NCBI GenBank assembly: GCA_937625935.1
Contig: OW569349.1
Location: 310,001 to 374,000, forward strand
Direction of reading: 5' to 3'
Source: Tetramitus jugosus
Lineage: Eukaryota > Heterolobosea > Eutetramitea > Acrasida > Vahlkampfiidae
Length of the DNA stretch: 64,000 bases
A program made the position numbers and the translations under genes. Shown one piece after another: positions 1,343-58,441 of the stretch. The notes beneath the pieces were generated by a model. The model had not been told where the DNA came from. It saw only the letters and a program-made list of their open reading frames with translations, and did no database searches. The stretch's first letter is position 1. Every line of letters begins with the position of its first letter.

Positions 1343-2864
1343 TTAATTGAATTTGCTCTTGGTGTTGATCGATGAGAAGGATGCAGCTCTGGGGAACATC
1401 ATTTCCTTGATGTTGCTCAGAATGCCCTTGTCGTAAATGTTTGGCAACGATCTGAATCCTTTCTTGACATTTTCGCTCACGGTAATCAATTGTTTCAGTC
1501 TCCATTCCTTGTCGACTGGTATTGGAGCACGTTGTTTGATCACGGGTGCGTTATTATTGGACGATGTGGAGGATTTTCTCTGTGCAGATTTCTTATTCTT
1601 CTTGTTGTTCGATTCAGTTTCATTCACAGTTGCTTGTTGCTTCTGCTGTTGTTGATCTACTTCATCGTCGTCATCATAGATTCGATGATACAGTTCCTTC
1701 ATGTCATCCGGATTCTTTGTTGTTGGATTGTTGCGATACAGATACACGATTCGGTGCAACTTGCCAATATCGTCCCACTTGAACGTTTCATTAGTCGTTC
1801 TATTTTTCATGGTCAAATACATGTGATATCCCCAGAATCCAAACAACATCATTCCAATCGCAATCAAGAAGAACCACTGTGCAATCACAATCAAATACAT
1901 GGACAGCATGTACTGCACAATAATGATTGGAGTGGCTTGAATCTGTTGACCACTTGGTGTCATAAACACTGACTCCATCAAATTTTCCTGTTCGACAATA
2001 CCGTACAGCACAGCACCATACAGATAGGCACCATAGAAGCACGCCACATAATTCATCACCAAAAACAAGTGAAACCATCGATAGTTCAATTCACCGACAT
2101 CGTTATTCAACCAACCACAAAAGTGATCAAATCTAGCAATGCATTTACCAGTGATGGCACAGTGCTTGGATCTCGGAACTCTCTCCGTGCCGCACGTACG
2201 ACATTTTCTGTCGGGGAAATAGAGCGCAGAGTCGTAGTCGAAACTGGCGAGAAATTGATCTTGATTTTCGGTTGTGATGATACCAGGATTGGCGAAACAA
2301 GCTTTCCAATAGCTAATGTAAGCCAATGACAATGCTAATACACTGGCCACTCTGTCATGCATCAAAAAAGCACATGAGTAGAAAAAACAAACAAGATGAG
2401 AGAATTGTGTGGGTGAGTCAAAAATTCAGCAATCATAAATCCACAAAAAGACAACTTGTACTACTGCTACTACTACTATTCAAAAATAACTTTAAGCTTG
2501 TTAAACTAGAGTCTGAACACACGTACTTGTGATAAATGGGAACTGCAACGTTCGGTATCAGTGGAAACAGGTACATGAAGAACAAGAAGGCATTGACACC
2601 CATCAATGTCAAGTACACAATCTGAAGAATGGGATTCTTTTGATAACACATGTACTTTTCCCATGATTTACAAGTGTTGATGCCTTTTTGACCACAGAGT
2701 GATTGAATGAGTGAGTGAGACCACTTTTTTGGTGCCGTAGTAATCAACATGTGAATTCTACCAATGGTTCCATCTCTGTGATACTGTGTTTGACCCATCA
2801 ACAGTACATAGAGTATGAAAACTGTGATCAGAGTGTAAAGGTAGAGTAGAGTGAAGAGAAACAT
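1343..2864 (-). CDS. DHHC-family palmitoyltransferase with variant DHFC motif
   Basis: Two exons: 2864..2527 and 2351..1343, with a 175-base GT..AG intron; the joined frame reads ...YHKVASVLALS. The protein is about 448 residues and multi-pass. Two hydrophobic segments precede the cysteine-rich domain and two follow it, with a TTNE motif after the last. The cysteine-rich domain (CRTCG...SKHC...RFDHFCGW) resembles the ZDHHC4/plant PAT17 type. These enzymes S-acylate cytosolic cysteines at membranes. The catalytic Asp, first His and Cys remain, but the second His is Phe, the middle Cys of the usual CxxCxxC is Thr, and the usual NNC is NND. The C-terminal tail is Lys/Asn-rich. Family is certain; activity is less so. 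Confidence 0.88.
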
Positions 2865-3067
2865 GTTGTTGTTGTTGGTACTATTGTTGTTGGTGTTCTT
2901 GTTCTCTCTGCTTTTTCTTTTTTGTTTGAGGGAGATCGTTTTTGTTTTCGCTTTTGTCCGCTGCAGGGTCAGCGGAATACAACACAAGAAATGGTATGGG
3001 ATTGAACTATTTATTTTAGTTTTCTCCTTTGAAGCTTGAATAAGTTGAATGAACAGAGATTGGGTTG

Positions 3068-4312
3068 TTATTGAGTGGGGGTATACGATGGAGGAACATA
3101 GCCCAAGTTGGGATAAGGTACACCCATTTGTTGTTCGTCTGGAACTCTCTCTGGTTGATAGTTGGAAGGAAAAACCATCTCATTCTCGTTCTCCATCTTG
3201 ACGTAGTCTGATACAGTGAGAACTCCATGTTTGTCCAACCCGATCTTACTTCCTCGCTTGACCAGTCTAAGCAAAACGAAGCAACCACCAAAACACAGGA
3301 GTGAGTTCACTATCACAGGTACAATGATACTAATCGCCATCAATCTTCGATTGCTTTTGATAACATGAGGAGGGATTGGCCCAACAGGGTTTGGAGGTAC
3401 AGGACCAACTGGATCAGTTTTGTTCTTTTTCCAAAGCATGGGTTCATAAGCCAAATGGAGAGTTCTTTCCTGGGTGGTCTTGTATCCAATATTAACAACA
3501 TAGGAGACACTATTGTTGTATTTGCTGAAGTTGTACGTTGTTGGTATCACAAAGTCAGTGGTTTTAGAAATGAATCGCAGACCACAATCAGTGCCAATGT
3601 TGTACATCCCAGACTTGGCTTCTTCCAACAGAATCCAATAGATGGAATAAGAAACGATACCCTTGAGCTCTGAGCTCAAGACACATTTACCCTGGTTGTC
3701 CGCAGAGGTGCATCGCTTGGCTGCATGAAAAGAGACTGTGTTTGTCTTTGGATTCGATCCATCGACCGTTAACGAGTTGAGATAATTGTAAAACATTCCC
3801 TTTTCGTTGGCTAAGAATCGAAAGAATGAAATAGAAATGCTGATCCTATTATCATAAGAATGTGATGGTTTTCTCGGAGTGATACCAAAGTAATGATAAG
3901 TGGATGCAACAGCAGGAACCTTTTCAAATATGACTGGTCTCTGGGCATAATCACCAAACATGGTCGATTCATAATTGATGGCACTAAAGTTCTGAGAATT
4001 GCTCGGAAACCATTGTAAGCTGCCGTCATCACATGTTGAATCAGTGAGCTTGGAGCAAGATGTATAAAATACATCAATCGTTCCATCACATGCCTCAACT
4101 GCCAATGTAAAATATGCCATCGACCATGCCATGTACTTGTCCATATCAAACCTATAGAATATGACATTATCCTGGGCAATTCTCCTTCCTTGTGATCGAT
4201 CATTGTAATCGAACTCGGTCTCATAATAAGGCGCACAGTCAACCACTTGGTGTTGCTTCAGCAAAAAAGAGAACAGACAAAGGATAAACAGTGAAGATAA
4301 GATGGAGTTCAT
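3068..4312 (-). CDS. Type I single-pass membrane protein, signal peptide (unrecognised)
   Basis: A single-exon protein of 414 residues. The N-terminus is a clear signal peptide (MNSILSSLFILCLFSFLL). An extracellular or luminal region of about 300 residues follows, with several cysteines (for example CDGT, CSKL, STCDDGS, RCTSADNQGKC) and N-glycosylation sequons (NFS, NNS, NKT). A short Pro-rich linker (PVGPVPPNPVGP) leads to one transmembrane helix (ISIIVPVIVNSLLCFGGCF). The cytosolic tail of about 60 residues is Pro/Tyr-rich at its end. I do not recognise the family. The layout suggests a surface or endosomal receptor-like protein, but that is only inference from topology. Confidence 0.75.
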   Translation of the reverse strand: MNSILSSLFILCLFSFLLKQHQVVDCAPYYETEFDYNDRSQGRRIAQDNVIFYRFDMDKYMAWSMAYFTLAVEACDGTIDVFYTSCSKLTDSTCDDGSLQWFPSNSQNFSAINYESTMFGDYAQRPVIFEKVPAVASTYHYFGITPRKPSHSYDNRISISISFFRFLANEKGMFYNYLNSLTVDGSNPKTNTVSFHAAKRCTSADNQGKCVLSSELKGIVSYSIYWILLEEAKSGMYNIGTDCGLRFISKTTDFVIPTTYNFSKYNNSVSYVVNIGYKTTQERTLHLAYEPMLWKKNKTDPVGPVPPNPVGPIPPHVIKSNRRLMAISIIVPVIVNSLLCFGGCFVLLRLVKRGSKIGLDKHGVLTVSDYVKMENENEMVFPSNYQPERVPDEQQMGVPYPNLGYVPPSYTPTQ

Positions 4313-12413: not shown

Positions 12414-12484
12414 GCATCTGTAGTGTAGGGGTATCATGCAGCGTTGCCATCGCTGCGACCCGGGTTCGAATCCCGGCAGATGCA
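12414..12484 (+). tRNA. tRNA-Gly (GCC)
   Basis: A 71-base cloverleaf without intron. The acceptor stem is GCATCTG/CAGATGC, all seven pairs perfect. The anticodon arm is CAGCG-TTGCCAT-CGCTG, giving anticodon GCC. The T arm is CCGGG-TTCGAAT-CCCGG, and the discriminator is A. Internal A-box and B-box (GGTTCGAATCC) promoter elements are visible. Two LINE insertions lie 32-52 bases upstream. Confidence 0.96.
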
Positions 12485-32166: not shown

Positions 32167-32237
32167 GCTGCTTTAGTATAGTGGTAGTACACGGGATTGT
32201 GGCTCCCGCAACACCGGTTCGATTCCGGTAGGCGGCA
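32167..32237 (+). tRNA. tRNA-His (GTG)
   Basis: A 71-base cloverleaf, no intron. Acceptor stem GCTGCTT/AGGCGGC with two G-U pairs. Anticodon arm CGGGA-TTGTGGC-TCCCG gives anticodon GTG. T arm ACCGG-TTCGATT-CCGGT, discriminator A. B-box GGTTCGATTCC. The extra G at -1 typical of tRNA-His is not genome-encoded here (the base before is A), so it would be added after transcription, as in most eukaryotes. The SDR gene starts 65 bases downstream. Confidence 0.96.
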
Positions 32238-48238: not shown

Positions 48239-49582
48239 ATGAACTATCCTAGCAACAGCAATTTAACACTGGACGCAACTAGACATCTCTCCTCCTACAC
48301 TCCCACACACTTTCAACAACAACAACAATACAATAGCAACAACACGATGCTGCAACGCCCTCAAACACCACTCTACTCTGCTGCCGCAGCATCTACAATG
48401 GACATTCGCTCGACTCTCTCTCCCTCCACAGGCTACTATCTATCACCATCAGCAGCAGCATTAGCCAACAATCAACAACAACAACAACAATTACCTACCA
48501 CATCATGGGGTGTCTCATCATTATCACCTTCACCCTTTTCACGAAATTCAATGACAAATCGCATCCCAGGATTAACAACAACAGCAATGGCAGCCTCTGC
48601 GACTTCGCTCTCTCCTACCACTCATCATCAATTGATGAAACCCTTGGCTACTACTACTACTGCCACGAGTCCAATGATGGGTTTCATGGTAGGACCAATC
48701 TCTCCATCAGCAACAGCTACCATTGCACCAACAGCAGTTGCACCAGACTCTGCTTTCAAGCTCTCGAAATTCTTGCAACGCAGTGCATCCAAGCAATCAC
48801 CTTCGATGACAACAATGATGCCACAACAACAACAACAACAATTGCAGTCACAAGCTCAACAACAACAACAACAGTATTCCTTTAGCTTCTCTTCACCTGC
48901 ACCAACAATGACTACGGCTGCTGCTACTACTGCGACTACGACTGCTGCAGAGACAAAAGACACACCTCCACCAACAGAGAGTATCACTGATTTGTTGACA
49001 CTGAACGCACCAATTACATTGGACAGTGGCAGTAGCTCAAAACCATCATCTGCTGCTGCTGCTGTATCAAAGCAGTATTGGGTCAGAATATTCGGATTTC
49101 CATCCTCCAAAATATCGATTGTGCTATCTGATTTCTCCGCACTCTGTGGTGGAAGAATATTGAATCATGTGTCCAGTGAAGGCAACTGGGTAGATGTCGC
49201 ATTCGATAGTGAGAGTGCTCGTATGAAAGCACTGGAGAGAAACGGACAAATGTTGGACAGTTTGAAGCACTTTGTGATTGGTGTGTTGAAATTGAGTGAT
49301 GATGTTCACGGCAGTAGTGCCCATGTGGACAATAGCAGCAGCAGTGATGAGCGAGCAGTGCCAAAGAGACTGTACATGATTAAGCGACCAAATGATATTG
49401 TGATGAGTGATGAACGAGGTGAGCAAACCCTAAAGAGAAAGAGAAGCATGTACGATGACGAACCGACAACAGAGATAACTGCATCATCGTCCTCACTATT
49501 AACAACAATGGCAGACGAAAGACCATTGAAACGACAAAGATCATTCTTTTATCAAATGTTGGAAAACATTTTCAAGTTTTGA
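48239..49582 (+). CDS. NUP35: Nucleoporin NUP35/Nup53 homologue
   Basis: A single-exon protein of 447 residues. The N-terminal ~270 residues are Gln/Ser/Thr/Ala low complexity, encoded by CAA, ACA and GCA runs. Residues ~279-350 form the MPPN (Nup35-type RRM) domain: YWVRIFGFPSSKISIVLSDF, GNWVDVAFDSESARMKALER and GQMLDSLKHFVIGV. The final 20 residues (PLKRQRSFFYQMLENIFKF) form an amphipathic helix like the membrane-binding tail of Nup53. It is a structural part of the nuclear pore inner ring. The stop codon lies five bases from the TTAA at the left end of the Fanzor element, so its 3'UTR is now provided by, or disrupted by, that insertion. Confidence 0.88.
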   Translation: MNYPSNSNLTLDATRHLSSYTPTHFQQQQQYNSNNTMLQRPQTPLYSAAAASTMDIRSTLSPSTGYYLSPSAAALANNQQQQQQLPTTSWGVSSLSPSPFSRNSMTNRIPGLTTTAMAASATSLSPTTHHQLMKPLATTTTATSPMMGFMVGPISPSATATIAPTAVAPDSAFKLSKFLQRSASKQSPSMTTMMPQQQQQQLQSQAQQQQQQYSFSFSSPAPTMTTAAATTATTTAAETKDTPPPTESITDLLTLNAPITLDSGSSSKPSSAAAAVSKQYWVRIFGFPSSKISIVLSDFSALCGGRILNHVSSEGNWVDVAFDSESARMKALERNGQMLDSLKHFVIGVLKLSDDVHGSSAHVDNSSSSDERAVPKRLYMIKRPNDIVMSDERGEQTLKRKRSMYDDEPTTEITASSSSLLTTMADERPLKRQRSFFYQMLENIFKF

Positions 49583-49587
49583 GTAAA

Positions 49588-49591
49588 TTAA
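49588..49591. repeat. TTAA target-site duplication, left
   Basis: TTAA directly before the left terminal inverted repeat; the matching TTAA is at 52804-52807. The pair is the expected footprint of a TTAA-specific (piggyBac- or Sola3-like) transposase. Confidence 0.75.
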
Positions 49592-49606
49592 GGTGGCGGT
49601 CCACTG
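49592..49606 (+). repeat. Left terminal inverted repeat
   Basis: GGTGGCGGTCCACTG, one mismatch to the reverse complement of the right end. The core GTGG/CCAC is itself self-complementary. Confidence 0.85.
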
Positions 49607-49671
49607 TCGATCAAACCATAATAAAAAAATTATGATTTCCCGACACCTTAACGCTCCTACATAATCGGGAT
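49592..49671 (-). ncRNA. Candidate omega-RNA (guide RNA scaffold) 3' of Fanzor
   Basis: The 80 bases between the Fanzor stop and the transposon end, read on the minus strand, can fold into two hairpins. One pairs 49665-49670 with 49638-49643 (TCCCGA/TCGGGA, six pairs). The other pairs 49630-49638 with 49613-49621 (nine pairs around a T-rich loop). The second contains a G-U pair on the minus strand that would be a C-A mismatch on the plus strand, favouring a minus-strand RNA. Bacterial TnpB omega-RNAs overlap the 3' end of tnpB and the transposon end, with the guide just outside. By analogy the guide would be the antisense of the NUP35 3' end. This is inference. Confidence 0.4.
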
Positions 49672-51558
49672 TTACATAGCAGCTTGATGGAGTGAGCCTT
49701 GGAGGTGTTCCACCATTTTGATTAATTCTTTTGCGACCTTTTTCTTCCTCTTGAAGGCATCGGGACGTGACTGTCCATCCATTTCTGTTCTCAGTAGATG
49801 GAGCATGTTCTTGGCCGCATTGATGTCTCTGTTGTGAGTCACTAAACATTTAGTGGTTGCACACTGTTTAACTCCTCGGACGACAGAGACATTCAACGTT
49901 CCATTCTTGTCTATTCTCTTATGCTTGACTGGCTTGAGTTGACAATGACAGCCATTGCAAATCTGAGAAGTCTTATACTCATCCACCATATGGACTTGGA
50001 AATGTTCAGTCATTCTCTTCAACAATTTGACTTTAGGACTAACCATGTTACCCTTATAACTATTCTTGAATCCACCATTGCCCATCCCAATCAACATACT
50101 TCTTCCTTTCGACTTCTTTTTCAAATCATTCATCACACCAGAAAGAGTCTTGTCTCTCATCATGTAACTGTCCCAATTCAGTTTCTTCACCTTTGAAGAA
50201 CAATAAAAGTCCAACAAATCTTCCTCGACTTCCAAAACCGAATCAATATGTTCTAGGTACAAGTCATTAGACGAGACATTAGAAGTCTTGATCGAGTTGT
50301 GGAGTTGATCAACATTCTTCCCACTCTTCTCATTCCACTGCTTTTGGAATTTCAATAATCGTTTCTTGTTCTTGGAATGGTGAGAGAGGTGATGGTACGT
50401 CTTGTTACTCAACTCCCATTTGTTACCATCATTATCAACACAAGACAATAAGGTAACAATACCGGGATCAATACCCACCAAGTATTCGGATTGAGGGATT
50501 GGAGGTTTTGGATCAACCTTTTTCTTCTTGGGTGCCTTTTCCTCTGACTTCTTCTTTTTCACCTTGTGGTTCACATGGTTATCAATCAATTGATGTCTAA
50601 CAACCACAGAGGCCTGTATACCATCTGTTCTCACAGAGTCAATCTGCAACTTTCTTGAACCGACATTCAAACAATCAAGGTTGTATGAAAATACTGGGCC
50701 TTTTTGGATCTTGTCTAACAATTTTTGAAATTCTTTGGTTCCAATTTCGATACATCTACACCTAAAATGACACTGTGGTAACAAAGTAAATGATTTCCTG
50801 TCTTTAGAGATCAAATATTTTTGAATGTGCCAGTAAAGTTTGAGAATTTGATTAGGATTCTTTTCGATGTAATCTTCACTCATTGGTTCTTTTGTGCCAA
50901 CAACGTCATTCACTTCTTTGATCAATTGAGGGATTAAATAAATCAATTCTTGAGGAGGCAGTTTTTGAAAGTCATACACCTCAGCCGTAAAGATTAATTT
51001 TCTAATGATGAAATCAATCACTCTTCTTTGTTCACTTTTTGGAATCTTTAAAGATGGATCAATCAATTCTTCCATTCTCAGTCTCAAATAGCGCTTCAAT
51101 CTTTGCTCCAAAGTGAATTGAAACATATTGGAGATATTAGTGGCCAATGATTTGGCAACATAATTGAATGAATCTGAATAGCCATTGTATATTTTTCGCA
51201 ACTTTTCGATTTCATCATTCATGTTGATGGTGGCATTGATTCTTTCAACATTCTTGGTTCTATCAACAGAGTTTCTTCCAAAAAGGACAGAACAAATTCT
51301 TTGAATGAAGCCTTGATTCACCTCAGGAATATTCACTCGTGATTCCAAGCACTTCAAAACAAAGGAACTGAGGAGCCTAGAGATTCTAATAGCTGCTCTA
51401 GTAATTCCTTTTGCTCTTTCTTCAATCACTGGAACTAAAGAAGGATGATTCTTCAATAGAGATTTCAAACCAACCTTGATGACATAATGAGAAGAATAGT
51501 TTTCCTTATTGACTCTTGTTCTCTTCCTCTTCCCACTCTTGGGTACTCCTCGAGGCAT
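49672..51558 (-). CDS. Fanzor: eukaryotic TnpB-like RNA-guided endonuclease
   Basis: About 628 residues from the ATG at 51558 (MPRGVPKSGKRKRTRVNK, a basic NLS-like start); the frame is open to 51660. The C-terminal half is the RuvC nuclease. RuvC-I: EYLVGIDPGIVTLL (Asp ~364). The segment GMGNGGFKNSYKGN at ~491 sits where TnpB has its RuvC-II Glu. VDEYKTSQICNGCHC follows (Glu ~527, the shifted catalytic Glu described for Fanzors). Four zinc-ribbon cysteines lie at ~534, 537, 566 and 571. RuvC-III is THNRDINAAKNML (Asp ~578). A Lys-rich linker precedes RuvC. All catalytic positions are present and the frame is intact, so activity is plausible. Codon use looks AT-richer than neighbours. Confidence 0.93.
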   Translation of the reverse strand: MPRGVPKSGKRKRTRVNKENYSSHYVIKVGLKSLLKNHPSLVPVIEERAKGITRAAIRISRLLSSFVLKCLESRVNIPEVNQGFIQRICSVLFGRNSVDRTKNVERINATINMNDEIEKLRKIYNGYSDSFNYVAKSLATNISNMFQFTLEQRLKRYLRLRMEELIDPSLKIPKSEQRRVIDFIIRKLIFTAEVYDFQKLPPQELIYLIPQLIKEVNDVVGTKEPMSEDYIEKNPNQILKLYWHIQKYLISKDRKSFTLLPQCHFRCRCIEIGTKEFQKLLDKIQKGPVFSYNLDCLNVGSRKLQIDSVRTDGIQASVVVRHQLIDNHVNHKVKKKKSEEKAPKKKKVDPKPPIPQSEYLVGIDPGIVTLLSCVDNDGNKWELSNKTYHHLSHHSKNKKRLLKFQKQWNEKSGKNVDQLHNSIKTSNVSSNDLYLEHIDSVLEVEEDLLDFYCSSKVKKLNWDSYMMRDKTLSGVMNDLKKKSKGRSMLIGMGNGGFKNSYKGNMVSPKVKLLKRMTEHFQVHMVDEYKTSQICNGCHCQLKPVKHKRIDKNGTLNVSVVRGVKQCATTKCLVTHNRDINAAKNMLHLLRTEMDGQSRPDAFKRKKKVAKELIKMVEHLQGSLHQAAM

Positions 51559-51785
51559 ACTAATGGTTGTTTGGTTTGATAAAAATGAGATATGATTGTT
51601 ATTGTATTTGTTGTATGGTGTATTTGTTGTGTGTTGTATTTGTTGTGTGAGATGAATCAAACAGCGAAAAAGACAGCGCTTTTTAAACCGAGGTAGATGG
51701 CCGTTGCCGTTGTAAAGACAGTCTCAACGGAAATTTTTACAACTGCACCAATTCCGCAGCTTAGAGGAAACTGATACAACATTTA

Positions 51786-51957
51786 TTGTATTTTTTTATA
51801 ATATATCCACCTATCTATCCAATCTTGAACCAACGAAAAACTTTCTCTCTGACACGACAACAACAACAACGAAAAACACAAGTCGCACAACGAACATCAA
51901 CAACAACAACAACAACAACCAAATCAATCAAAAAAGATGGAGAGTCGACAAGAGGTG
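51786..51957 (+). other. Leader-like segment with ATG, probably captured 5' end of another gene
   Basis: On the plus strand this has a (CAACAA)-rich tract, ACCAAATCAATCAAAAAAG, then ATG (51937) reading MESRQEV. This is just how host genes in this window begin. The frame then enters the antisense VPS35-like fragment and stops after about 36 codons. It looks like the promoter, leader and first codons of a host gene joined to another fragment inside the transposon. Confidence 0.45.
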
Positions 51958-51958
51958 T

Positions 51959-52594
51959 CTATTCGCAGTGTGCATTGTAGATTCTCTGAGCAAGTTTCAA
52001 GTAGGAGAATACAAGCGGTACCAATGTGTATTGAATTCTCTTGACACCACCCTGACCAAAGTGCTTTCTGGCTGCGGCCAAAACTTTAAACAATTGATCA
52101 GTATCGCTATTATCAAACAAATGAACCAATCTGGCAATCAAGTTCTGTTCTTCTTCGAAATCTTCGAGCAATGTTGCAGCTATAGGTGAGTCGTCAGAAG
52201 GTGAGAATGTTGTCTGGTCTTCCTCATCCTTCAACAGTGGACGAATCAAATCAAACAGTTTGTTCACTTGTTCAAATGTTGAAATCTTGTGTCCATTGTC
52301 AAGTGCGCATCTCACAATGCTCAGTACAATAAACTTTCTCTGTTCATATCCAAGAGAATGAATAATATCACCATACTTCTCCAACTTCAAAACTGTTAGC
52401 ACATTGTTGTATGACTCGAGTGGCACCAACAACAATCGCTTCAACATGTCTACAATTTCATCTGAAGCAAGTGCAGTGCTATTCAATTGACTAGCAATGT
52501 TATTAATAATCTTGTTGACATAGTCAGTGTTATCAGGATATGTTTGAAGAGCAAGTGTCATCAATGAGATCTGAATACTCAAGTTATCGGACAA
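51959..52594 (-). pseudogene. Fragment of retromer subunit VPS35 inside the transposon
   Basis: About 211 open residues match an internal part of VPS35: SLMTLALQTYPDNTDYVNKI, then YNNVLTVLKLEKYGDIIHSL, QNLIARLVHLF, ARKHFGQGGVKRIQYTLVPL and VFSYLKLAQRI. Complete VPS35 is about 800 residues; here only the region equivalent to roughly the middle is present. There is no proper ATG (the frame opens at a TTG) and the stop comes right after the homology. Upstream, another frame (SDLMMSMSFLTFVKFCPTI) is open before a stop. It is most simply a captured gene fragment, antisense to the leader-like segment. It could yield antisense RNA to the true gene. Confidence 0.7.
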
Positions 52595-52788
52595 TTCAAC
52601 ACCTCTCTAATGGTATCAATAGTAGGACAGAATTTGACAAACGTCAGAAAACTCATACTCATCATCAGGTCACTCGCATTCACGATGTCCTTCAGAGTGT
52701 TTGTTTTCTGTTTTTTGCAAGTTTTTTTTGATGAAAAAAATCAATGATGGGTAAATTTATACGATTTCTCCTATTAAAACGATTTCTT

Positions 52789-52803
52789 CAGTGGACGGCC
52801 ACC
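52789..52803 (-). repeat. Right terminal inverted repeat
   Basis: CAGTGGACGGCCACC, inverted relative to 49592-49606 with one mismatch, followed by TTAA at 52804-52807. Confidence 0.85.
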
Positions 52804-52849
52804 TTAAACAACATTTATTTTTGAGAGCAATATCCATGATACACTCTTT

Positions 52850-55800
52850 CTATTGCATCAGCTTACCTGATCTTCTTTCCTTGCTCTCCTTGGCCTTCTT
52901 GACTGGTTGATTCATGTCTTCTCTCTTGTCACCATACTGTTTGTCTCCTCTTGTTGCCTTGGGTCCGTACACGTCGAGATCGCTCGATTCAACAGCCAAA
53001 TTCTTGAGGAATCTCTTCTTTCTTCTCGTTTCATAGCCATAGAATCGCTTAGAGAATTCAGTGCTCAAGTCACGAATGGCCAAAAGAAGAATATCGTCCT
53101 CTGGTATATTCATGCTGTCCAAAGAGTTTCTCAAATTACGCAAATCATTGTTCACTTGATTCAAGTGAGTTTTGGCAACGTTAGCAGAATGGAAGGAATT
53201 ATCTCGGCAGAGTCTCTGAATGTGACCATGTGAGAAGAAATCAACAGCATATGAGTTGAGCATTTCAGATTCGAGAGACACGTGAGGAATGATTGATGAG
53301 TCGATCACCATAGTGTGCTTCACAGTAGCCAACAATTTCTCAACAGTTGAGTATTGGTCATTGTTACCAGACAAGGCAGCAAATGAGGAAGTTGAGTGGT
53401 TTTGATGTCTTTGTTCCTTCAATCTTCGAACAATCTCTCCTTCATCAACCTCTGGCTCCTCTTCTTCCTTCGTTGCTGGTTCTTCTTGAACAACTTCGAC
53501 TGGCTCTGGAATCTCCTCCTTCTCTTCTTCTTCTTCGTCTTCATCCCACATCAAGTCTTCGTCATTGATCTCTTCCTCTGCAGGCTCTTGTGGCTCTTCC
53601 GGCTCCTCTTCCAATGTACCACCTGCAATCGTTTCACCTGGTACATACTTAAATTGAATCTTACTCAATGGGAGCTCTGTATCAATATTTTCTTGAGGAT
53701 GAGCACAGGAATAGCTTCTGACAAACTCTGAATAAATTTGCTTCACAAGAGTCGAGTAACCATGGTAGGCATCAGAGATACCACTTGGTAATGGAGCAAC
53801 AGTTCTACACATGACATCCTTCTTGAAAATCTTGATTCTGCCAAAGAAATAGGCAAGTACTGCCAGCAATCCCTCCAATCTCTTCTCATACGCAATTTCC
53901 TCATCCTTCAACAAGTTGTGCAGCATGTCGTTTCTAGCAAAGAAGGTCATCATGAAGTTATATGGCTCGTGATAGTGCATACGAGAAATGAAGCTTGCAA
54001 AATTGAGAGGAGTTCCATTGGGATCAACATAACCATTTCGAAGCAAAAATTCTGTAGAATATCTAAAGTAGTGCTTGACCTGATGCAAAGATTGAGGCAT
54101 AATCTTACCCAACACGAACAAAGGTTGCTGAAGAACTCTCAGATAGTCCGTACGAACATTTTCTTCCTTCTCTGGACTATGCTTCAAAGTTTCATAGTAT
54201 GAGATGAGCATTCTCAAGAGGAAACTTGGCTTTAAACCCATGGATCCCATAATATTTGGAGGAGCAGACGTCATATATCTGTTAATGGTTGCTTGATCGA
54301 TACCGTAGAGGCAAACTCTTCCCAAACTGTCAAACCCTCTTCTACCCGCTCTACCAGCACATTGGTAAAATAGAGTTGTATCCAAGTATTTAGATTTTCC
54401 AACAATAACAACAGTTCTCGCAGGCATGTGAATACCAAGAGCAAGAGTACTGGTGGCAATTACAACAGGCAATGCTCTTTGTCTGAATAAGCGCTCAACT
54501 GCTTTTTGATAGTTTTCGTGAATAGCGGTGTAATGCACCGAGATACCATACTTCAAACCTTCAATAAACATTTCATCAACTAGTCCAGTTAACTCATCAC
54601 AAACAGATGCAATTTGCAACAATGCTTGAGATCTGTCTTTGTCAGTCTCCCAGAGATTGATTCTATTTGCTTTCACATAAATTAATAGAGTCTCGAGCAA
54701 CTTATCGATAAAGTATCTAGAGAAGTAGAAACAGATTGCAGGCAATTGTCGTTGTTGTCTCAAGGACATAATCAACTGGCAGAAGTGTTGTTTGAGGAAG
54801 TGCTGACTTTCAAAAACACGCTTGCTGTAATGACTGTTCATCAATGAGAACGATGAATCCAAGTCTTTTCTGATATCTGCGAAAATACTCAACATTAACT
54901 CTTGATGTGCTTGAGATCTAGCATACTTTTGAACTGTACTTGTCACAAGCTTGCGGTATTGGAGTAACTTGTTTCTATCTATCAATCCAAAGTCCTGTGA
55001 TAATTTAGATGGATCACACTCTTCAAAAATGTTCTCAACACCCATCATAGCACACACTCTGTTGGCAGAATCAAAGAATTGAAGACATTCAGCAGCTGAG
55101 AATGTTTGCAGTCTGTCAATCTCCTGATCAACAATTCTATATGCATTCAATACAGAGAGTGGATGAATGGAATGTAGCTTGCTAGGTTGATCTTCAAGAG
55201 CTGGTTGGAACACCTGGAATTCTAGAGGTTGTGGTCTATCCTTGTGTTCGACGAGTTGCACATCAGATTTGTTTAGACTTAACCATTGAGTGAACTCCTT
55301 AGGATTTCCAATTGTAGCAGATAAGGCCAAAAATGGGCACTTAACCATCAACAAAATATGTTCCCAAACATCTCCTCCATCTGAACTCATACAGTGAACC
55401 TCATCAAGAATAATATATCTAAGTCTTTCTCTCCACTCAATATGCTCCTTTGTATGAGAGAACAACATAATCTCCAAACACTGAGGAATGGTAATCAGAA
55501 TTTGAGATGTTGTTACATTGATACGGTCGGACGATGTAAACATGCCCAACATTTGTCTAGACTCAGGATGAGCATACTTCTTCGCATATTTACTGTATAA
55601 CTCAGCAAATACTTGATTCGTCAGTGCTTTTGTTGGCAAACAAAATACAACCACAGAATCATCATTCTCTCTCAATATCTTCTCGATCACGTAAAATGCA
55701 ATAAAAGTCTTACCAGAGGAAGTAGGAGCAGAAACAAGAATAGATCGATCTCTATCAACATGTTCTATTAGCTCGTTTTGCCACGGATCTGGTCTGAATC

Positions 55801-58441
55801 CAAGATCAACCATTTTCTCTTTAATTGCTCTCTGTTTGGTACCCAAGTCCTCCATATGCACAACAGGGGCTGGTTCATCAGGGAAAAATTGGTTGATGGA
55901 TCTAAAGTTATAATTGTACTTCAGCTGCAATACATTCGGATCCCAAATATCTTCATCTCCATCAATCTTGATTGAAGAGCGCAAGTTAGGATGTTCGTCC
56001 AACATGTGCTCAGCCATCTTTCTAAATCCTACCTGATTTAAACTGCTAATTAACAGCTTATAGTGAGCATCAAAGGAGGTATCCCTCGTCTGTGACAATC
56101 TCTCTAAATACTCATAGATAAGGTTCACCACCTCTGTAACCTTATAGTAATCAAATTCTGATTTTGTCTGTGCAGCAACTGACACACAAACTTGAAGTTC
56201 ATATGAGAACAATTCGATGAGCGTATCTTCTAAACGTCGAACCAACTTCTCAATCGCTTGAGCTTCTGGGTTTGGTTTAGGAGCCTTCTTTCCCTTAACT
56301 GGTGCACTATTTGACTCCGCCACAAGAGCTTCAATCTTCCATGAGGAGCGTAGTAGGGCAGCTACTCCCTTCACATAGTCCTCTAAACTTCTTAATAGTC
56401 CGGGACTATTATCAGGAGAAATTTTGGAGACTGAAAGTGTCTTATACTGCTTTAAGATTGACTCCAACTCATCACTGTTCTTCTTAATGCTATTCTTAAG
56501 AATAATCGCCTCTGCACCCTTGGATGTCTTTGGCTTCTTTGGCTCTTTTTTCTTTGGTGCTGGTCTGCCACCCTTCTTACCGTTTGTATCCTCTTCTTCA
56601 ACAGGAATATCCTCAGTTTTATCAGTTTCGATAGCTCTCTTCTCATTGACCTTACCTAAACTCTCAGCATAATCATGAAGTCTCTTCAGAGAATAGTCTT
56701 GTGCCTCCTTTCTTCTCTTGAGAGCTCTCTGACTCAACTTAACATCTACTTCCTGCTTTGCTTTCCAGCTTTCGATCGCATAACCAGTGTGCTGGTCTTC
56801 TTCCTCAATAACAACACTACTCTTTAACTCTGAAAATTTTTCATCCTTCAGATAGTCATCGATCAATAAATTATGAATTGGGAGAAGCTTTGGTAAGCTA
56901 TTACCCACAGTCGACGATTGATCTTCAACCTCACAGTTCTCTTTTCTTGACAACAGATTCCAAACTGACTCAGGAATCTGACCGTCAATAGCAGCCTTCG
57001 ATGCCACAAATTGTTTCAGATGTTGTTGGCAGAGAGAGAATGCTCCGCTCAATGATGGCGGCAAATCCAAGTGTATGAATGTAGGTGTGCTATCTGGCTT
57101 TCCAACACCCTGCATTCTTTCATTCTGAATATGGAATAAAGTGTGAATTAATCTTCCATCATATCCGTCATAAAAATCAGGGAAAACTTCGGACTCTTGA
57201 ACTACGCGCAAGAGCTCTCCACTGAACTCATTCAGGAAAGAGTTAATCTCTGGATAAATATAATCGATCTTCTGAGATCTGTAAGCAAGAGGGATATTTG
57301 TTTGGAGCAACATGGAAGCCAATAACAGTTGGGAAAGATACAATCTAGAATAAAGTTCATCTGTCGTATTTGTCAATAGCTTACAACAAGCTACCAGCGC
57401 TGTTGCAATTCTAGCTCCATCAACTGAAAACAACTCGTCTTGTTTGGTCAATGTTTCCACTTCACCTTTTGTTTGTGTATCTGGAGTTGTCACAGCAATA
57501 TTTGAGGCATGAATAGCGCCAAAGCTCTGTATCGCATCAGGAACCATACCCATAACAACAGATGGAATATCAGTGTATAATTCAGTTGAAAACCCATATG
57601 CTCCCAATCCTTTGAAAGTCACATCACAAACAACTGGCACATTGTTCAATAGGAACGAATGATACATGAACAACAAGTTGTCATTCTCTCCAACAACGAA
57701 AGCTGGTCTAGATTGGAACAAGAATTGCTTCCAATCATCGTTTAGCCAATGGTCAAAAATATGACACTTCACATTCAACTTTGTCTTCAAATGGTTAAGC
57801 ATTGCTGAACGGGCAAGCAAGTATCGGTTGTTCATCTTCTCTGATCTAACTGTTACATTGTATCTCTTGAAACTGGTGAAATCAGGTCGAGATTGTATCT
57901 CTGCTGTCACATCGCATGGCGCTCTACCGGCCTTTTCAAAACAAACAATGTCAAATCGAATGGATCGATCCAACAAACTTTGAACAAAAGTTTCCAATCG
58001 ATATGTCAAGTGCAAAAATTGACCACCATGTTCGTCCCAATCAATAAAGTGAGACTTGGAGAGCAACTCTTGAAGAATTGCATCAATATCAACCAGAATA
58101 AAATCTCTGGCACCAGACTGACTCGGTAAATTATAGTATTCCATTCTCACATTTTTGTAGCATATATGAAGAATAAATTGATTCTTTAGCTCCGGTTCCA
58201 CATTCTCAAAATCCTTTAGATCCACGCCCTCTTCCTGCTTTAGCATGAGAGCTTCTGCTTCTTCTTCATCCCTCTCATCTTCTGAATTCTTGTCTTCACC
58301 TTCAAAATTTCTCTCGGCAGCCTCCACTTCTTCTGCGTCCACGTCTTCATCGGGCTCCTCGGCAACACTCCGAACGGGTTTGGTAGATGATTGAACTTGC
58401 GATGAACGTTCATCATCGTCATAACTATCTTCAAAATCCAT
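52850..58441 (-). CDS. DDX60-like SKI2-family DExH-box RNA helicase
   Basis: A single exon encoding 1863 residues, the size of DDX60 proteins. An acidic N-terminus precedes a ~850-residue DDX60-type N-terminal region. The helicase core follows: PDPWQNELIEH, Walker A SAPTSSGKT (~907), LPTKALTNQVFAEL, DEVH box YIILDEVHCMSS (~1014), LSATIGNP, then ATSTLALGIHMPARTVV and QCAGRAGRRGFDSLG (motifs V and VI). A winged-helix/ratchet C-terminus is interrupted by an acidic insert (EEEEKEEIPEPVEVV), and the tail is basic. SKI2-like helicases unwind RNA; animal DDX60 is linked to antiviral RNA sensing and translation control. A protist role is unknown. Its 3' end is about 45 bases from the Fanzor element. 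Confidence 0.92.
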   Translation of the reverse strand: MDFEDSYDDDERSSQVQSSTKPVRSVAEEPDEDVDAEEVEAAERNFEGEDKNSEDERDEEEAEALMLKQEEGVDLKDFENVEPELKNQFILHICYKNVRMEYYNLPSQSGARDFILVDIDAILQELLSKSHFIDWDEHGGQFLHLTYRLETFVQSLLDRSIRFDIVCFEKAGRAPCDVTAEIQSRPDFTSFKRYNVTVRSEKMNNRYLLARSAMLNHLKTKLNVKCHIFDHWLNDDWKQFLFQSRPAFVVGENDNLLFMYHSFLLNNVPVVCDVTFKGLGAYGFSTELYTDIPSVVMGMVPDAIQSFGAIHASNIAVTTPDTQTKGEVETLTKQDELFSVDGARIATALVACCKLLTNTTDELYSRLYLSQLLLASMLLQTNIPLAYRSQKIDYIYPEINSFLNEFSGELLRVVQESEVFPDFYDGYDGRLIHTLFHIQNERMQGVGKPDSTPTFIHLDLPPSLSGAFSLCQQHLKQFVASKAAIDGQIPESVWNLLSRKENCEVEDQSSTVGNSLPKLLPIHNLLIDDYLKDEKFSELKSSVVIEEEDQHTGYAIESWKAKQEVDVKLSQRALKRRKEAQDYSLKRLHDYAESLGKVNEKRAIETDKTEDIPVEEEDTNGKKGGRPAPKKKEPKKPKTSKGAEAIILKNSIKKNSDELESILKQYKTLSVSKISPDNSPGLLRSLEDYVKGVAALLRSSWKIEALVAESNSAPVKGKKAPKPNPEAQAIEKLVRRLEDTLIELFSYELQVCVSVAAQTKSEFDYYKVTEVVNLIYEYLERLSQTRDTSFDAHYKLLISSLNQVGFRKMAEHMLDEHPNLRSSIKIDGDEDIWDPNVLQLKYNYNFRSINQFFPDEPAPVVHMEDLGTKQRAIKEKMVDLGFRPDPWQNELIEHVDRDRSILVSAPTSSGKTFIAFYVIEKILRENDDSVVVFCLPTKALTNQVFAELYSKYAKKYAHPESRQMLGMFTSSDRINVTTSQILITIPQCLEIMLFSHTKEHIEWRERLRYIILDEVHCMSSDGGDVWEHILLMVKCPFLALSATIGNPKEFTQWLSLNKSDVQLVEHKDRPQPLEFQVFQPALEDQPSKLHSIHPLSVLNAYRIVDQEIDRLQTFSAAECLQFFDSANRVCAMMGVENIFEECDPSKLSQDFGLIDRNKLLQYRKLVTSTVQKYARSQAHQELMLSIFADIRKDLDSSFSLMNSHYSKRVFESQHFLKQHFCQLIMSLRQQRQLPAICFYFSRYFIDKLLETLLIYVKANRINLWETDKDRSQALLQIASVCDELTGLVDEMFIEGLKYGISVHYTAIHENYQKAVERLFRQRALPVVIATSTLALGIHMPARTVVIVGKSKYLDTTLFYQCAGRAGRRGFDSLGRVCLYGIDQATINRYMTSAPPNIMGSMGLKPSFLLRMLISYYETLKHSPEKEENVRTDYLRVLQQPLFVLGKIMPQSLHQVKHYFRYSTEFLLRNGYVDPNGTPLNFASFISRMHYHEPYNFMMTFFARNDMLHNLLKDEEIAYEKRLEGLLAVLAYFFGRIKIFKKDVMCRTVAPLPSGISDAYHGYSTLVKQIYSEFVRSYSCAHPQENIDTELPLSKIQFKYVPGETIAGGTLEEEPEEPQEPAEEEINDEDLMWDEDEEEEEKEEIPEPVEVVQEEPATKEEEEPEVDEGEIVRRLKEQRHQNHSTSSFAALSGNNDQYSTVEKLLATVKHTMVIDSSIIPHVSLESEMLNSYAVDFFSHGHIQRLCRDNSFHSANVAKTHLNQVNNDLRNLRNSLDSMNIPEDDILLLAIRDLSTEFSKRFYGYETRRKKRFLKNLAVESSDLDVYGPKATRGDKQYGDKREDMNQPVKKAKESKERRSGKLMQ

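Follow-up and report, generated by a model that had tools for sequence, protein, structure and literature searches.

A dispersed TTAA transposon family with a Fanzor1 nuclease and captured host gene fragments in Tetramitus jugosus

The element, its ends and its relatives

The stretch of DNA analysed here (64,000 nucleotides of Tetramitus jugosus, hereafter the window) corresponds to C6:310001-374000 of a 26.35-Mb assembly of 56 contigs, which are designated by C-numbers. The window contains a TTAA-flanked transposon, located at 49588-52807 when both TTAA copies are included, that encodes an intact Fanzor nuclease. This element belongs to a family with conserved ends at TTAA sites dispersed through the genome, in which the Fanzor coding sequence is constrained, two types of termini occur and pieces of host genes have been captured; the Fanzor of the window copy is recombinant. 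The features of the element are the following (positions in the window, with strand):

49588..49591, no strand: TTAA target-site copy on the left side (the 3′ side of Fanzor), read directly
49592..49606, +: left terminal inverted repeat (TIR) GGTGGCGGTCCACTG, from inverted-repeat comparison and genome matches
49588..49655, -: predicted 3′ hairpin of a putative Fanzor guide RNA, with an inner GTTAAGGTG opposite the terminal CACCTTAA
49672..51558, -: open reading frame (ORF) of the Fanzor1 RNA-guided nuclease, 628 amino acids, catalytic residues D364/E527/D578, from ORF, Pfam, alignment and structure model
49672..49887, -: C-terminal part of Fanzor (with an approximate upper limit), 96-100% identical to the other lineage at the DNA level
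51796..51940, +: 5′ leader captured from a BTB/POZ gene of the host and ending at its ATG (C11:502404-502547, 90%)
51969..52646, -: fragment captured from the host VPS35 gene (C22:83229-83909, 98.7%), made up of exon sequence and about 43 bp of apparent intron
52789..52803, -: right TIR, one mismatch to the left TIR, from inverted-repeat comparison
52804..52807, no strand: TTAA target-site copy on the right side, read directly

The sequence TTAAGGTGGCGGTCCACTG starts at 49588 and its inverted copy ends at 52807. Positions 49588-49606 and 52789-52807 are complementary at 18 of 19 positions, i.e. TTAA plus 15 bp with one mismatch. Among 20 TTAA x TTAA pairs around the Fanzor ORF (in a 4.4-kb slice), the ends of the element were the sole pair that reached the cut-off. 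When searching the genome, the 19-bp end was found at 41 sites with at most three mismatches, compared to four sites for a reversed-pattern control. A pattern lacking the TTAA was found at 25 sites, all of which are preceded by TTAA (25/25; their coordinates coincide with TTAA-bearing matches). Together, these searches indicate that the ends do not arise by chance. The element lies between a NUP35-like ORF (48239-49582, +) and a converging DDX60-like ORF (52850-58441, -), the stop codons of which would, by arithmetic, be 51 bp apart if the element was removed and one TTAA kept.

We compared 34 left ends, 27 of the first type (that of the window) and seven of a second type (TTAAGGATGTAGTTCGGTG), with unrelated flanks. 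All start with TTAA (33/34) except the end at C24:244713, which starts with CCAA and of which the outer target copy may have mutated. The second-type end occurs at 12 sites in the genome, nine of them exact, and the right end reads CTACATCCTTAA in seven copies. Five first-type copies, 3220 to 4634 bp long, have both ends complete and carry TTAA on each outer edge. As 40 of 81 candidates were scored in the DNA search of the genome (62 pieces), copy counts are lower bounds. The family comprises at least 36 recognisable insertions: the 27 first-type left ends and nine second-type sites with Fanzor-related sequence. TIRs and TTAA thus occur at many unrelated sites, as in a TTAA cut-and-paste transposon. 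The original prediction of a TTAA-flanked transposon with 15-bp inverted repeats was borne out, and the genome search that it proposed returned dozens of dispersed copies with the same ends. It had also claimed that no transposase lies inside, and we found none in the ORF list of the element or by Pfam on its two long ORFs. The family to which the window element belongs is a real one of non-autonomous TTAA cut-and-paste transposons, and was probably recently active.

Two small loci, C31:454916-455010 (95 bp, ending TTAG) and C38:404462-404518 (57 bp), are remnants that consist of hardly more than two facing first-type-like ends, and are internal-deletion derivatives. Two others, C47:119538 and C52:91097, have a second-type end of 35 bp, the only part that is shared, and an otherwise unrelated interior. 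They lie in an apparent diverged segmental duplication with similar flanking ORFs. A virus origin was also considered; six stretches in viral contigs matched a pattern and none was confirmed as a relative.

The nuclease and the captured host DNA

The Fanzor ORF is unbroken from its ATG (51558) to its stop (49672). In Pfam it matched Cas12f1-like_TNB with 35.4 bits (cut-off 26.3), and OrfB_IS605 scored 24.2 bits, under the cut-off of 30.5. The best solved relative by sequence is the Spizellomyces Fanzor 8gkh (E 1.1e-16), with which the RuvC Asp, the DEYKTS Glu, the zinc ribbon and the NRD Asp align. The best matches of a structure model were three solved Fanzor1 proteins, and the model has the Fanzor1 fold; identity to SpuFz1, PpFz1 and GtFz1 in structural alignments is 16-20%. 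The claim of an intact Fanzor with RuvC Asp, shifted Glu, zinc ribbon and final Asp was therefore confirmed by ORF, alignment and structure model alike. The Fanzor1 motif D-X(125,275)-[TS][TS]-X-X-C4 zinc finger-X(5,50)-RD, as given in PMC3627910, is present: D364 is followed by T530-S531-Q-I-C534, CxxC...CxxxxC and, after 5 residues, R577-D578. The relocated RuvC-II Glu precedes the zinc ribbon; this residue, E527, aligns with SpuFz1 DEYKTS and, like the rest of the catalytic triad, is invariant in 13/13 aligned proteins. This alignment took 9 of 11 database matches, leaving out P0005 (partial) and P0011 (19% coverage). The gene resides in a eukaryotic TIR transposon, with TIR and TTAA found family-wide, and not in an IS607 element; no IS607-type recombinase was seen when ORF lists were inspected by eye, and the class was set from motif, fold and type of transposon. 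By homology we assign the protein to Fanzor1, for which RNA-guided cleavage is predicted. A relative of about 40% identity is found at C32:2808-4866; it combines an end of the second type with a strong hairpin on the left.

Fanzor is free of stops in 19 of 20 full-span copies, and omega was 0.14-0.16 between and 0.09-0.28 within lineages. Recent changes amounted to 67 nonsynonymous, 68 synonymous and one stop, against about 3.8 nonsynonymous per synonymous change expected from site counts only, without transition bias (p 3e-14). These counts are based on 16 of 18 complete copies; C2b and C26a were left out since they fall outside the tight clusters, and the other two full-span copies, C16 and C48, were covered in part only. 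Judged from the substitutions, Fanzor has been under purifying selection in recent copies.

Two Fanzor lineages, A and B, are present, and the window copy combines them. Compared to C22 in 100-bp steps, it is 96-99% identical over 1-300, 49-77% over 300-2000 and 97-100% over 2000-3100. The same pattern was observed with C8b, except that its first 25 bp differ and that identity drops to 93% in one step (2000-2100). At the protein level, residues 1-550 of the window Fanzor are 60.6% identical to three lineage-B copies, and the remainder is 100% identical. The metagenomic protein P0001 is 77% identical to lineage B (L023) in the core and only 62% at the C-terminus. As the identities of core and C-terminus are discordant, recombination near codon 550 is the best explanation. 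In addition, the ends have been exchanged around near-identical nucleases: in C1, for which no right end was recognised, an A Fanzor (99% to that of the window) follows a left end of the second type. Within lineage B, both ends are of the first type in C34 and of the second type in C23, and the Fanzor cores of these two copies are 97.5% identical.

About a fifth of the element is the VPS35 piece, in which the ORF 51959-52594 was recognised as VPS35 (Pfam E 5.7e-44, positions 330-526 of 726). The resident VPS35 gene is located on C22 (best match 82336-84489, 777 bits), and the closest named match of its exon is from Naegleria gruberi (56%). Element and resident gene align over 681 columns with 98.7% identity, starting about 43 bp ahead of the exon-opening frame in an apparent intron that was deduced from reading frames, not transcripts. 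If this intron is right, the fragment was captured as DNA and not as spliced RNA. The host limits of the fragment are identical in 17 of 20 element copies compared; in C34 it has an in-frame internal deletion and extends just beyond the VPS35 stop, in C27 the stretch is different and longer, and C50 was compared in part only. The simplest reading is a single capture, followed by differing deletions. The four copies examined that lack the VPS35 module (C19b, C4a, C4b and C33) are all of lineage B, and lineage A accounts for only three of the 20 full-span copies. The sequences thus suggest that the capture probably took place in a B element and that a different core entered this shell later.

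Long copies also carry parts of two further genes: a stretch of 439 bp that matches a gene on C21 (322109-322547, 97%), and one of 78 bp identical to part of a HAT/TPR-repeat ORF (C13:247706-247783), which we take to be PRPF6-like. Fragments of unlinked host sources (VPS35, BTB, C21 and C13) are therefore found inside the terminal repeats with their parents elsewhere, as in Pack-type elements. The long copies contain, in addition, an ORF of 161 amino acids (C22:244011-244493) for which the F-box-like and chromodomain scores are weak and do not reach the cut-off; its 22 genome matches all lie beside element copies, and three database proteins match it at 98-100%. The core reading of the original prediction stood; it had overlooked the pieces captured from VPS35 and the BTB gene, the mosaic structure of the nuclease and the second type of ends.

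Movement, the putative guide RNA and alternative explanations

The left end can fold into a hairpin. The fold of 49588-49659 (minus strand) had a z-score of -3.59, with 0/200 shuffles as good, compared to -1.22 and 21/200 for the right-end control. Other left ends scored -2.78 (lineage B, one shuffle as good), -3.39 (second type) and -3.43 (the Fanzor relative of about 40% identity), with 0/200 shuffles as good for the latter two. Pairing is possible between the inner GTTAAGGTG and the terminal CACCTTAA or CATCCTTAA, which would place the duplicated TTAA at the closure of the stem, directly ahead of the guide. Of 37 left ends, 31 contain the inner GTTAAGG, and the lowest-energy fold differs between copies, that of the window included. 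No Rfam match was obtained at E 0.1 in 49000-53400. According to PMC10711439, the Fanzor1 guide-RNA scaffold includes the TIR and the target-site duplication, with about 15 nt of flank beyond. The target-adjacent motif (TAM) of GtFz1 is TTAAN in PMC10432273, which we follow here; PMC11423790 gives the GtFz1 and SpuFz1 TAMs in the opposite order.

We consider it probable that the family combines a TTAA transposon and its Fanzor1 with a transposase acting in trans, a left-end guide RNA, TTAA as TAM and homing after excision, and that the host pieces are passengers. A TTAA-specific transposase encoded elsewhere would move the element. The 3′ untranslated region of Fanzor together with the left end would yield the guide RNA, the scaffold of which would close on the terminal repeat and TTAA, and the next 15-20 nt or so, i.e. 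flanking DNA, would serve as the guide. Excision would leave a re-joined empty site (flank-TTAA-guide), which would therefore be a perfect Fanzor target; the TAM predicted from this excision product is TTAA. When the empty site is cut, the cell may copy the element back from the sister or homologous chromosome. Host gene pieces would most likely be passengers acquired during repair, and shells may swap Fanzor cores via recombination between copies.

Several results weigh against this scheme. No element with either set of ends was found to carry a transposase. In the copies examined, neither inspection of ORF lists by eye nor Pfam on 13 ORFs (C22, second-type copies and C47) revealed one; as the remaining ORFs were inspected only visually, a transposase that has diverged or is split by introns could have escaped notice. 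None of eight ORFs of the long copy C22 had a Pfam match above cut-off. The ORF adjacent to the C47 end, which has three genome matches, matched no Pfam family above cut-off, and four further C47 ORFs had no match at E 0.01. An autonomous partner was sought among the Fanzor-less copies C47, C52:91097, C31 and C38:404k (C43 not included) and none was found, C31 and C38 being remnants. The original prediction had named a piggyBac- or Sola3-type enzyme as mover. The genome has 12 matches to the piggyBac domain (DDE_Tnp_1_7), 0/12 of them at a site with these ends, and no TTAA-ended inverted repeats were found around three piggyBac loci; a piggyBac-type mover was thus not shown, and no Sola3 or Kolobok model was searched. 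On the side of the guide RNA, the inner motif is absent in 6/37 left ends, including those of C3, C34 and C11, which keep long Fanzor ORFs. In the left-end alignment fold, 10 pairs were kept and 0/10 were compensatory (16 of 37 left ends were aligned, the others being near-duplicates or hairpin-less, and the C39 row is short at its 5′ side). Moreover, the 25 nt beside the guide differ between the terminal types, even though the Fanzors of C1 and the window are 99% identical, which would be odd if that stretch was read base by base.

These left-end results would fit a TTAA family in which Fanzor now has no guide-RNA role, the left-end hairpin serves as a binding site for a transposase and the protein has been retained for another reason: covariation was not seen, the inner motif can be absent and the 25 nt beside the guide are interchangeable. 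We regard this as unlikely in view of the purifying selection in recent copies, the invariant triad, and the hairpin that is significant at the 3′ end of Fanzor only and not at the other end. That no transposase was recognised in any copy examined could also mean that none is needed and that Fanzor homing alone copies the element. Homing needs guide-matching sites, whereas here the flanks are unrelated and the ends and TTAA are kept, which is the signature of a TTAA-specific integration enzyme; we therefore give homing alone hardly any credence.

The captured VPS35 and other pieces might instead be functional cargo (a truncated retromer protein or a VPS35-interfering RNA) selected together with Fanzor. 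At least 20 copies of the element have the VPS35 fragment, 14 of the 17 that were aligned are free of frame-breaking indels, and the internal deletion in C34 keeps the frame. Host and all 17 elements differ by four exon substitutions, all synonymous, as would be expected of changes in the host gene, which is under constraint. Among the element copies, we counted 13 nonsynonymous and seven synonymous changes, indistinguishable from neutral (p 0.12) and not significantly different from the ratio in Fanzor either (Fisher p 0.24). Frame-breaking indels are found in C3, C2a and C26a, and C27 and C34 have other limits or deletions. These counts are based on the 17 copies with the common fragment, leaving out C27, C34 and C50 with their differing or partial fragments. 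In this small sample the VPS35 piece looks like a passenger, and a function as cargo appears very improbable. Finally, RNA-guided breaks made by Fanzor might drive the reshuffling itself: guides of one copy would match the flank or body of another, and repair of the cuts with further copies and host genes as templates would swap cores between shells and ends between transposase systems, and add host pieces. We consider this a rather doubtful extension; if true, an RNA-guided nuclease would act as an engine of diversity for its own transposon, in addition to maintaining it.

Elsewhere in the window, a tRNA-Gly (gcc) is found at 12414-12484 and a tRNA-His (gtg) at 32167-32237.

Comparison with known systems

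This family bears on the native role of Fanzor in eukaryotic transposons. One genome holds 20 full-span copies, most of them intact, that have been under purifying selection; their two sets of ends are interchangeable, one shell houses two deeply separated nuclease lineages, and the parent genes of the captures are still present. The roles of TIR, duplication and TAM can thus be tested directly, as every flank predicts a guide and every empty site predicts a target that starts at TTAA.

The combination of TTAA ends and Fanzor, which the original prediction took to be less described, is already in print: PMC3627910 describes TIR transposons that carry Fanzor1 and have a TTAN duplication, and PMC10432273 gives TTAA as the TAM of GtFz1, so this combination alone is not new. 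The Fanzor1 transposons of insect viruses (SfAV and relatives; PMC3627910, PMC10711439) are similar in that they carry Fanzor1 only, without a transposase, have a short TIR and a 4-bp TTAN duplication, and their guide RNA is predicted to include TIR and duplication. In contrast, the present family resides in a cellular genome in dozens of copies, with two end sets, captured gene pieces and a recombinant Fanzor. The Sola2-Fanzor1 elements of Dictyostelium and Polysphondylium likewise occur in amoebae, with TIRs and a 4-bp AT-rich duplication, and form families in which one part is common and another completely different (PMC3627910). Modularity itself is thus not new, since modular Fanzor families have been described there. 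These elements differ in their AWWT-type duplications and in that they code for, or descend from elements with, a Sola2 transposase, whereas here the duplication is TTAA and no transposase was recognised. SpuFz1, PpFz1 and GtFz1 (PMC10432273, PMC11423790) share only 16-20% identity with the window Fanzor, as given above, and the TAM here is a prediction.

No published Fanzor element with captured host gene fragments was found in a literature search that was mostly without subscription papers and supplements, and gene-fragment capture is an addition to the known cargo of Fanzor elements. Terminal repeats around fragments of several host genes are characteristic of Pack-MULE and Pack-TYPE transposons. 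Unlike these, the capturing element in T. jugosus carries a conserved RNA-guided nuclease and duplicates TTAA.

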